A stretch of DNA of 61,088 nucleotides, from positions 258,940 through 320,027 of the forward strand of contig PFGG01000035.1 in the NCBI GenBank assembly GCA_002783405.1. The letters run 5' to 3'. The position numbers and the translations under genes are program-made. Below the pieces are notes generated by a model, which worked only from the letters and a program-made list of their open reading frames with translations, was not told where the DNA came from and did not search any database. Positions 13,346 to 17,417 of the stretch are shown piece by piece (position 1 is the first letter of the stretch; every line of letters starts with the position of its first letter). The stretch comes from a bacterium (Candidatus Blackallbacteria) CG13_big_fil_rev_8_21_14_2_50_49_14 (GTDB lineage Bacteria; Cyanobacteriota; Sericytochromatia; UBA7694).

Positions 13346-13435
13346 ATGAAATCCTTTTTATTGAGAGTGAAAGTATTTTACCAATTCTCTGATCTATGCG
13401 CAGAAATGAAGCTTTTTTAGCATCCCCTTAAAATC

Positions 13436-13487
13436 TGTGGATAACCTGTGGATAACTCTATCCAATTTGTGGATAATTTGTGGATAA
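13436..13487 (-). promoter_or_regulatory. Left DnaA-box cluster (four boxes)
   Basis: Four perfect TGTGGATAA boxes in the same orientation, starting at 13436, 13447, 13468 and 13479. Steps are 11, 21 and 11 bp, so all face roughly the same side of the helix. Confidence 0.85.
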
Positions 13488-14120
13488 TCCGTTCAAACAA
13501 GGACCTAAGAATTTAGTCTAAGGCGCATGAATACTCTATTTTATACCTGTGCAAAAATCACAATAAAACGCTCTGAATAATTCTGTATGAATGGATCTCT
13601 GTGGAAAACTTGTGGAAAACCTGCTCTTTTTTTGGGGATATGTTGTGAATAAACCCCATGGTAGCCGACGAAAGGATCTTGGGCTCTGAACGATCTGTCA
13701 TCTCCTTTTACTCCCGACACCGATCAAAAGATCCGGGGAGATCCCGCCAATCAAAACCGACAGATCATGCTACCCTTTCTCCGGACAAAAACCGGTCATT
13801 TATTTCAAAAAATTTGGATCCATATTTTCAAAAAAGGATCGAAATGGCCAGCGGATCGATCTTCTGGACATTTTCAAGCAGTAAAAGTATGAATGCTTAT
13901 TTCATAAGCATTTGTGCGCATTATCACAAAAGAGAAGATCCAGTGGATCCTCGTAAAGATCGGACCGCTCTCCGCAATATTGCTTTCGAATTGAATTTCA
14001 AAAATGGGAACTGTCAAGTCTCCCAAATGTGTTTGATCGGTGAGTGGATCCTGTCTATAGAAGATCCGCTTTGAAGTCGGCTCACAAAAAATAAAGTGTC
14101 GGTGTGATCGGAACTGGATC

Positions 14121-14245
14121 TATATTAGTAGACAATTGTTTGAATTCTTTATATACTAGTAGACAATAAAAGACATCATTAAAAAGACATCTGAATAAAC
14201 AAGAAAATGTTTAGTTTTTTATATTTTTGTTTATTTTTATGAATG
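14121..14245. promoter_or_regulatory. AT-rich candidate DNA unwinding element
   Basis: Very AT-rich, with two copies of TAGTAGACAAT (14126-14136 and 14157-14167, 31 bp apart). TAG repeats beside DnaA boxes recall the DnaA-trio element on which DnaA spreads during strand opening; that reading is inferred. Confidence 0.55.
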
Positions 14246-14248
14246 TGT

Positions 14249-14351
14249 TTGTGGATAAGTTGTGGATAACCCTCCCCCTTGTCTGTGGAAACTTCTGTGG
14301 AAAAAAGAGGGCCTGTTGAGAAGCCCAACTTTTTCCACAACTTATCCACAA
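14249..14351. repeat. 18-bp inverted repeat of a double DnaA box
   Basis: TTGTGGATAAGTTGTGGA at 14249-14266 recurs as its exact complement at 14334-14351. Each arm holds two DnaA boxes (the inner one near-consensus on the right arm). Two further TGTGGAAA-type boxes lie between the arms at 14284 and 14296. Confidence 0.8.
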
Positions 14352-14558
14352 GTTAAAATTTAGCTTAAAGAACGATTACTCTTGAGTTCAAGCTCAGATA
14401 TCCACATTTCCACAGGCCCTACTACTTCTGATCATATAATTTGATCTGATCTTGAAAGATCTGATCTTTAAGCTATAGATCTGTTGGGTTTTCAATTGCC
14501 TGGGGGTATGTTAGTTTGGTACATATCCATATGATCGATTTTAAAGAGACAGACCATC

Positions 14559-15674
14559 ATGAAAATTACCTGTTCAACAGAACAATTGAAAAAAACGCTC
14601 CAAGCAGTGCAACGGGCAGTCGCCAGTAAAGGAATTCTTCCTGTACTCAGCAATGTATTGCTGACCTCTGATGAAGAAAATGAGAGTTATCTCAAGGTTG
14701 TAGGCACTGATTTAGAAATTGGGGTTGAAAGCAAGCTTGAAATTCAGAACCCACAAAAATTAAACATCACCATTCCTGCGAAAAAATTGTTTGAAATTGT
14801 CAACAAGTTTCCTGATGAAACGATTCATTTTGATTTTCATGAATCAGGCTCTGTGGATTTGCTTGGGGAAAAACTAAAATTTAATCTGAATACCTTGCCC
14901 GCTGATGATTTTCCCAGACTTCCCCATGTCGATAGAGAAAGCCAATTTTCGCTGTCCCTCAATGATTTTTGTCAGGCCATCAGACAGACAACTTTTGCTA
15001 CAGCCACAGATTCAGCCAAAAGTATTTTAACCGGTGTGAATGTTCAGTTGGGCAATGGTCAATTGCGCTTGGCTGCGACCGATGGCTACCGTCTTGCCGT
15101 CAGACAGGTAGTTTTACAAGAGGAATCTCAGGCCAGTCTGAATGTGATTATTCCCAAACGAACCTTGGTTGAATTGGAACGCCTGGTAAAACAGGATGAA
15201 CGGGAACTGATCGGAATGTCAGTGACTGACAGTCATGTTTTGTTTGAATCCGAAGGGAAAGTGCTGACCTCCCGACTGATCGAGGGCAAGTATCCTGATT
15301 ATAATAAGATTTTGCCCAAAACCTTCGGACGTAAAATTTGGCTGGAAACACGCCCATTTCTCAATGCTGTTGAACGTGTTTCGATTATGGCTTCAGAGCA
15401 AACCCATGTGATCAGCTTTGATATTCAAGCCTCAGAATTGATCATTACAGCCGGAGCTGAGCAGGGGAAAGCAAGAGAGTCGGTAGAAGTCAAAACCGAG
15501 GGTGAACCTTTAAATATTAGCTTTAATGCCAATTATTTATTGGATGTGCTCAAGATTTTTGCTGAAGACGCAAGCCATATCCTTTTGCAGCTGAACAGTG
15601 AAATTCAACCTGCGGTTGTGCAATCGGTAGACAATGATGATTATGTCTGTATGTTGATGCCGATCAAACCTTAA
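14559..15674 (+). CDS. dnaN: DNA polymerase III beta subunit (sliding clamp)
   Basis: 371 residues, the standard clamp length, beginning MKITCSTEQLKKTLQAVQRAVASK and ending in the conserved VCMLMPIKP-type C-terminus (YVCMLMPIKP), with TDGYRLA in the middle domain. It encircles DNA and tethers the replicative polymerase. It is the first gene to the right of the origin-like region and is followed by recF after one base. Confidence 0.97.
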   Translation: MKITCSTEQLKKTLQAVQRAVASKGILPVLSNVLLTSDEENESYLKVVGTDLEIGVESKLEIQNPQKLNITIPAKKLFEIVNKFPDETIHFDFHESGSVDLLGEKLKFNLNTLPADDFPRLPHVDRESQFSLSLNDFCQAIRQTTFATATDSAKSILTGVNVQLGNGQLRLAATDGYRLAVRQVVLQEESQASLNVIIPKRTLVELERLVKQDERELIGMSVTDSHVLFESEGKVLTSRLIEGKYPDYNKILPKTFGRKIWLETRPFLNAVERVSIMASEQTHVISFDIQASELIITAGAEQGKARESVEVKTEGEPLNISFNANYLLDVLKIFAEDASHILLQLNSEIQPAVVQSVDNDDYVCMLMPIKP

Positions 15675-15675
15675 T

Positions 15676-16818
15676 GTGTGGATTCAAGCTCTTGAACTCA
15701 ATCATTTCAGGAACTACCAAAAACTCCAATTAGATTTGGATCCGTTTCGGCAGATTGCTTTGGTGGGACTGAATGCTCAAGGTAAAAGCAATTTACTTGA
15801 GAGTTTGTTTTTACTTGCCTTTGCATCCTCGTTTAGAACCTCGTCCTTAACAGAGTTAATCTATTGGGGTGAAAACATGGCCCGAATAGAAGGTACTTTT
15901 GGATATCAAAACAATGTGCCCGTTCATCTGAAGTTTTATGTTCAACGCAATGGGAAACGTGTTGCTGCAGTAAACCATGTTGGACAAAAGCGTCTCGCCA
16001 ATTATATTGGCTATATTCGCCTGGTTTGTTTTACCTCTAAAGATTTATTAATGTTGACGGGTCAACCCTCTGATCGCAGACAGTTTATCGATTTGCTCCT
16101 TATTCAGAGCTATCCTCGCTATTATTCGCTTTTACAAAACTATAACCGTCTTTTGAAACAGCGCAACAGTCTTTTGAAAAGCTTGAAAAAATCAGATTCA
16201 CGCCTGCCCAACAGTGATTTGGAACAATCGTTGGAATCTTGGGATTTACAATTGGCGGAAACAGGTGCTCAGATCATTCAAAAACGGGTAGAGGCTTTGA
16301 AAGTTTTTTCTGAATATATGAATGAATCCCATGCGCAAATGTCGTCACAGACTGAAAGCGTTAAGTTAGGATATCGCTCAAGTTTAGGAGAGGTAGCAGA
16401 GGGTTCAAGAGCTGAGATGACAGAACAATTTTGCCGACTTCTCAAGCAGAAAAGGATAGCTGATATTTTACATGGCTACAGTTCTGTAGGACCGCATCGT
16501 GATGATCTCTATTTCTTACTGGGGGGCAGAGAACTTCGACATTTTGGATCTCAAGGTCAAATCCGAACGACCGCTTTGGCTTTGAAAATGGCTGAAGTTA
16601 AATTTTTGACAGAATTGTTTCACGAGCCGCCCATTTTACTCTTGGATGATGTATTCTCAGAATTGGATATCCAACGTCAGCAAGCTTTGCTTGAACATAT
16701 TCAGCAACCTGGCATTCAAACTTTTTTAACGACCACCCATTTGGATGGACCTGTACAACGCATTTTGGGAGAACAGGCCAAAGTTTTTCATGTTTCAAAG
16801 GGAGAAATCTTTGAATGA
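15676..16818 (+). CDS. recF: DNA replication and repair protein RecF
   Basis: SMC-like ATPase that loads RecA at single-strand gaps. 380 residues with Walker A GLNAQGKSN (31-39), the QGQIRTTALALKMAE signature region and Walker B PILLLDDVFSELD. The start is a GTG one base after the dnaN stop; no strong ribosome binding site, so it probably depends on dnaN translation. Its TGA overlaps the ATG of the next gene. Confidence 0.95.
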   Translation: MWIQALELNHFRNYQKLQLDLDPFRQIALVGLNAQGKSNLLESLFLLAFASSFRTSSLTELIYWGENMARIEGTFGYQNNVPVHLKFYVQRNGKRVAAVNHVGQKRLANYIGYIRLVCFTSKDLLMLTGQPSDRRQFIDLLLIQSYPRYYSLLQNYNRLLKQRNSLLKSLKKSDSRLPNSDLEQSLESWDLQLAETGAQIIQKRVEALKVFSEYMNESHAQMSSQTESVKLGYRSSLGEVAEGSRAEMTEQFCRLLKQKRIADILHGYSSVGPHRDDLYFLLGGRELRHFGSQGQIRTTALALKMAEVKFLTELFHEPPILLLDDVFSELDIQRQQALLEHIQQPGIQTFLTTTHLDGPVQRILGEQAKVFHVSKGEIFE

Positions 16819-17417
16819 AGCAGAAAAAAAACACACGTCGCTCAGGGCTTCAGCCCATGAGTTATCTGCTTTCAAGCTATATGCACCAGTTGAAAGATTT
16901 AAAACAGGATCGTCTGGGGTTGATTTTAGAAAGGTGGGTGGATATTGTCGGACCCTTTATTTCTGAGCGAATGGAACCGATTCGAATTGAAGAAGATCGC
17001 TTAATTTGTTATGTGGTTTCCTCGAGTCTATTACACGAGTTTTCGTTTCTGGAAACAGATATTCTTAGAAAATTGGTAAATTATCCTTGTGGAGAAGGAA
17101 TCAAAGGGATTCGTCTCACCACTGTAAAACCTCCCTCGAAACACAAGCCACCCGAAAAAAGACAAAAAACACAGCCGATTCAGCTTCCGCCTGAAAAATT
17201 AAATTTGAGAGAAATTCATGCCTTGGAAGAAAGTGTCCAGATTATTAAGGATCAGGATACACAAGCGCGTGTACTGCGCCTACTGAAAGCCATGGAAACC
17301 AGAAAGAAAACATTGGCATTTCACCATTGGAAGTATTGTGCCCATTGCCAAAATTACTGTGAGCCGCGCTATAAAGTCTGCCCGATTTGTAATCAATCCC
17401 TTCGGAGTGGCTCTTAA
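16815..17417 (+). CDS. dciA: DciA-like helicase loader (DUF721) with C-terminal zinc ribbon
   Basis: DciA is the widespread loader/operator of the DnaB helicase. 200 residues: DUF721 domain at ~15-105 (LGLILERWVDIVGPFISERMEPIRIEEDRLICYVVSS summarised by RW..IVG and the following strands), a basic Lys/Pro linker (~108-130), a helical stretch, and a C-terminal CAHC...CPIC zinc-binding pair (~175-195) that the minimal DciA domain lacks. ATGA coupling to recF and the place beside the origin support a role in replication. The DUF721 call is firm; the loader function is family knowledge. Confidence 0.8.
   Translation: MKQKKNTRRSGLQPMSYLLSSYMHQLKDLKQDRLGLILERWVDIVGPFISERMEPIRIEEDRLICYVVSSSLLHEFSFLETDILRKLVNYPCGEGIKGIRLTTVKPPSKHKPPEKRQKTQPIQLPPEKLNLREIHALEESVQIIKDQDTQARVLRLLKAMETRKKTLAFHHWKYCAHCQNYCEPRYKVCPICNQSLRSGS

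Follow-up and report, generated by a model that had tools for sequence, protein, structure and literature searches.

The intergenic region 13346-14558 of the analysed DNA is, with a probability of roughly 85%, the chromosomal origin of replication (oriC), in which arrays of DnaA-box pairs would seed a DnaA oligomer, the duplex would open at DnaA-trios at 14419-14427 and an upstream box array would have an auxiliary function. The window, i.e., the whole stretch of 61,088 nucleotides, belongs to a 320-kb contig from a member of the Sericytochromatia (Cyanobacteriota), a non-photosynthetic relative of cyanobacteria, with a genome of 5.65 Mb (96% complete). The region lies between gatC (- strand) and dnaN, in the order gatC (-), region, dnaN, recF-like gene and dciA (+). 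The first gene downstream, dnaN (sliding clamp; 14559-15674, + strand; Pfam PF00712/PF02767/PF02768), encodes a product whose nearest named relatives in a protein search are from Candidatus Sericytochromatia MAG_89 (86% identity) and UBA7694 (70%). A DciA-family helicase-loader gene (16815-17417; PF05258, E about 1e-6) directly follows recF. dnaA is unlinked: in the source genome it is found on another contig than dnaN, and in G001, a genome of the same genus, the two genes share one contig at a distance of about 267 kb.

The identity as an origin, already proposed from the letters alone, is well supported by the GC-skew minimum, the adjoining dnaN/recF/dciA genes and the DnaA-box cluster, which is unique in the genome. 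Computed from contig stretches, the cumulative GC skew declines steadily along 270 kb to a minimum at position 13829 of the window and then rises, so that the change of direction for which a check had been suggested is located inside the region. The minimum falls into the GATC-rich spacer between two box clusters (13594-14120), which contains no conserved gene. On a 543-kb contig of G001 the skew minimum falls into the trio element described below, 161 bp upstream of dnaN. AT-rich, easily melted DNA adjoins the boxes.

The sequence-only reading had described five box pairs with a step of 11 bp, the first two pairs being 21 bp apart. All ten boxes were found, the two members of each pair face the same way, each step is exactly 11 bp, and the 21-bp distance is borne out by the coordinates. 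Exact TTATCCACA boxes start at 13436, 13447, 13468, 13479, 14250, 14261 and 14342, and TTTTCCACA boxes at 13600, 13611 and 14331. On the - strand, the upstream array (13436-13487) comprises the pairs 13436/13447 and 13468/13479, followed by the pair 13600/13611 with a weak box at 13644 (13600-13652) and by the downstream array (14250-14304), in which the pair 14250/14261 and the boxes 14284/14296, with a step of 12 bp, face an AT-rich stretch. The last pair, 14331/14342 (14331-14350), lies on the + strand and faces dnaN; it is the core-module pair that is found across the Cyanobacteriota. Besides the 12-bp pair, the earlier description had left out the pair 14398/14406, with a step of 8 bp, and two weaker boxes (13548 and 13644). 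When 11 boxes of the type TTWTCCACA were placed randomly in 1,213 bp, at least four same-strand 11-bp pairs were obtained in none of 200,000 trials, and 94% of the trials gave no such pair. Genome-wide (5.65 Mb), the exact pattern TTWTCCACA-NN-TTWTCCACA has seven matches, five of them in this region; with up to two mismatches there are 15, and none for the reversed control. An isolated TTTTCCACA-GA-TTTTCCACA pair occurs elsewhere in both the source genome and G001 (L093:3455-3474 and L094:3387-3406).

The assumption that the boxes lie on one helix face holds within arrays, where offsets of 0/11/32/43 bp are in phase. It had to be rejected for all boxes together: as the box at 13600 is 164 bp (about 15.6 turns) away from the first one, phasing is limited to the arrays.

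Alternatively, the upstream cluster 13436-13652 may stand outside the initiation machinery and serve to titrate DnaA, act as a regulatory site, or form a promoter region through which DnaA controls gatC. The cluster adjoins gatC and is about 600 bp away from the core, and a similar conserved box with an 11-bp pair is present 3' of dnaA, where the skew does not switch. However, the cluster shares the skew-switch region with the core, G001 has exactly the same steps (11-21-11-69-52-11-33), G003 has the 11-21-11 set together with two further 11-bp pairs, and H. pylori provides a precedent for a bipartite origin with an auxiliary cluster (PMC8235120). A role of this kind is considered rather unlikely. 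The sites just downstream of dnaA occur in three genomes of two genera (L091:4384-4515 in the source genome, contig C43; L092:4367-4510; L096:4081-4233) and precede a promoter-like TTTGCTATACTG that belongs to the next gene and is likewise conserved; possibly they represent a DnaA-regulated promoter or a titration site.

At the dnaN-proximal end, positions 14398-14430 (+ strand) read ATATCCACATTTCCACA-GGCC-CTACTACTT, an element that had not been mentioned before. It consists of the boxes 14398 (ATATCCACA) and 14406 (ATTTCCACA), GGCC and the DnaA-trios CTA-CTA-CTT at 14419-14427, followed by an imperfect CTG, and forms a putative basal unwinding system (BUS). The arrangement by which a BUS is recognised, one or two boxes with trios within 16 bp, is present as ATTTCCACA-GGCC-CTA-CTA-CTT at 14406-14427. 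Judged by this likeness, 14398-14430 is probably the opening site and of the B. subtilis type, and the AT-rich and GATC-rich DNA beside the trios (14431-14482) is the probable continuation of the unwound region. G001 retains this element, and variants of it occur in a second family of the order as well as in Cyanobacteria.

Between the end of the pair 14331/14342 and the start of the first unwinding box lie 47 bp. When 291 genomes of the phylum were scanned for the exact pair-to-trio pattern with an allowed free gap of 50-80 bp, 16 genomes from 13 genera gave matches and the reversed control none; the remaining 275, many of which are small genomes of one family, lack the exact pattern. The gap to the last CCACA is 57-60 bp in all matches but one, an extra match that stems from a third box in an array. 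A relaxed scan, which was not built on the exact pair, gave gaps of 57-61 bp in seven genera, with no match for the reversed and one for the reverse-complemented control, and revealed no trio in several class members. The distance from the pair to the opening site thus appears to be nearly constant in the phylum where the module is recognised. Ahead of the core pair, the start positions of the convergent boxes (14296-14339 here) are 35-36 bp apart in the family of the window and 18-19 bp apart in several Cyanobacteria and other class members.

The point of opening is uncertain because the origin has its least stable DNA not on the trio side but at 14125-14249 (76-84% AT, z about +3.2). The duplex might therefore open there, driven by the - strand pair 14250/14261, which abuts this stretch and faces it; the trio-like element at 14419 would then be secondary or serve the other direction. 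Against this stand the scan, which gave no trio series beside the 14250 box, the conservation of box-GGCC-CTACTACT in G001, G006 and several Cyanobacteria, and the skew minimum of G001 at the trio element. We consider opening at 14125-14249 improbable, at about one chance in four, and prefer opening at the trios. The same stretch contains a promoter-like TAGACA-17-TATACT at 14129-14157, directed towards dnaN and also present in G001, which is the probable dnaN promoter; the number of promoter-like matches in the region is not above chance. It is flanked by two copies of the repeat AGTAGACAAT, about 39 bp apart (14126-14175), which are kept in G001 within diverged sequence and may be an operator.

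By analogy with homologous systems, DnaA would bind the box pairs, and the 2-bp gap would set two same-facing DnaA molecules about one helical turn apart, joined head-to-tail through their AAA+ domains. Arrays with boxes added at about whole-turn distances (11, 21, 33, 43 bp) would seed the oligomer. The pair 14331/14342 faces the boxes 14398/14406, from where DnaA could extend onto the trios and open the adjacent AT-rich DNA for helicase loading, and the upstream cluster may loop to the core as an auxiliary DnaA-binding array. The earlier proposal of a DnaA dimer or a helical filament as the assembly unit agrees with published data: domain IV of Cyanothece DnaA footprints two boxes 2 nt apart and not the single box (PMC4674748), and in T. 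maritima cooperative dimer formation on two same-facing boxes peaks at 2 bp (PMC10316083).

A comparison of the source genome with G001 gives 94% identity for the boxes and 92% for the element 14398-14433, against 44% for the spacer and 56% elsewhere. Box spacing is kept more than the intervening sequence. In G001 both members of the pair corresponding to 13600/13611 are TTATCCACA with the same steps, and in its downstream cluster a single step is changed by about 1 bp, besides one added box. The 11-bp pairs are short direct repeats, but that they are functionless by-products of local tandem duplication is extremely unlikely, as the pairs differ from one another in their 2-bp gaps and flanks, the boxes are far better conserved in this genus than their surroundings, and the pair 13600/13611, although TTTTCCACA here and TTATCCACA in G001, consists of boxes in both genomes. 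The spacing is real, looks functional and is of a known type.

The strict 11-bp geometry, which had been proposed for comparison with related genomes, is kept in the window and its close relatives, whereas other families of the class use 12 bp. A uniform 11-bp step for the whole class was rejected, with 12 bp in G007, G015 and one pair in G004. Among the matches listed, 33 tandem boxes of the class have a free gap of 0-8 bp; of these gaps, 22 measure 2 bp and nine 3 bp (reversed control 0). In a survey of 16 genera, each represented by one genome, the distance from one box to the next that faces the same way is mostly 11-12, 21-23, 33-35 or 43-45 bp. These distances are quantised, with a concentration of 0.74 at period 11 that was reached by none of 5000 uniform draws, and the clustering persists without the family of the window. 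Judged by these distances, whole-turn placing of boxes is a broader rule than the 11-bp rule of the sequence-only reading. A literature search for phased box spacing returned no publication.

The region is also rich in GATC. Its 1213 bp contain 27 copies, where the contig predicts 6.2 and dinucleotide shuffles give 6.5, and the maximum of 19 per 600 bp, located in the spacer, is that of the whole contig (best value outside the origin, 10). The copies are concentrated at 13594-14120 and 14430-14482. G003 is similarly GATC-rich (17 in 550 bp, 2.6 expected), and in G012 and G016 of the same class the count exceeds all shuffles. G001 is only mildly so: it reaches 10 per 600 bp, and other parts of its contig have more. 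A strictly conserved feature was therefore rejected, and the cluster is graded as suggestive only. Across 14 class genomes, which are related and for which kinship was not corrected, the GATC excess goes with the strength of the Dam match (rank test, p = 0.004, with a split at 200 bits that was our choice). The source genome encodes a full-length Dam-like protein (PF02086), whose nearest solved relatives are DpnM, the closest, and E. coli Dam. As to the features of a Dam/SeqA-controlled origin as in gammaproteobacteria, the GATC excess and, by sequence, the Dam methylase were found, whereas no PF03925 (SeqA) match was obtained in the 96% complete genome, with the E. coli control being detected. 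The GATC cluster with a Dam-like methylase and without SeqA is the least explained feature of this origin.

The 2-bp gap is already known from other bacteria; the parts worth following are the phylum-wide whole-turn phasing and the near-constant distance from pair to opening site, which bears on the question of a common assembly geometry among diverse bacterial origins. As a tentative and rather doubtful generalisation, the Cyanobacteriota may share a fixed orisome scaffold of same-facing boxes at whole-turn distances with one 2-bp pair about 45-47 bp from the DUE-proximal boxes, equal to the R5M-R1 gap of E. coli, combined in part of the class with a Dam-type GATC marking read by a non-SeqA protein. 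If true, such a scaffold would imply a common bend-dependent DnaA geometry under origins thought to be architecturally unrelated. The analysis provides a sequence-level origin map for an uncultured lineage that branches deeply as sister to the oxygenic cyanobacteria.

Compared to known systems, the supposed contrast to E. coli fails because each low-affinity array of E. coli oriC likewise has sites 2 bp apart (PMC6727663); the distance from R5M to R1 is 46 bp (measured; also PMC6727663) and 47 bp here, a match of a single number that may be coincidence. Both origins are GATC-rich, whereas the boxes here are mostly of the high-affinity consensus; in E. coli an IHF site lies within the R5M-R1 gap. 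The box clusters of H. pylori flank dnaA, while here dnaA is found elsewhere. The bipartite oriC of H. pylori otherwise resembles the region, as it combines two clusters of boxes with an opening element of the trio type (PMC8235120). With the BUS of B. subtilis the region shares tandem boxes, a short GC-rich link (GGCC), DnaA-trios and AT-rich DNA (PMC8287927, PMC8235120), and differs in that the BUS boxes here overlap at an 8-bp step, an 11-bp pair is located 47 bp upstream and dnaA is not adjacent. Like the origins of Cyanothece 51142, Anabaena 7120 and S. elongatus, the region lies before dnaN and carries TTTTCCACA/TTATCCACA boxes, including a pair of same-facing boxes with 2 nt between them, the arrangement footprinted there by DnaA domain IV (PMC4674748). 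In contrast to these cyanobacterial origins, it has more boxes with TTATCCACA dominant, two clusters about 600 bp apart, a strong GC skew and the GATC cluster.
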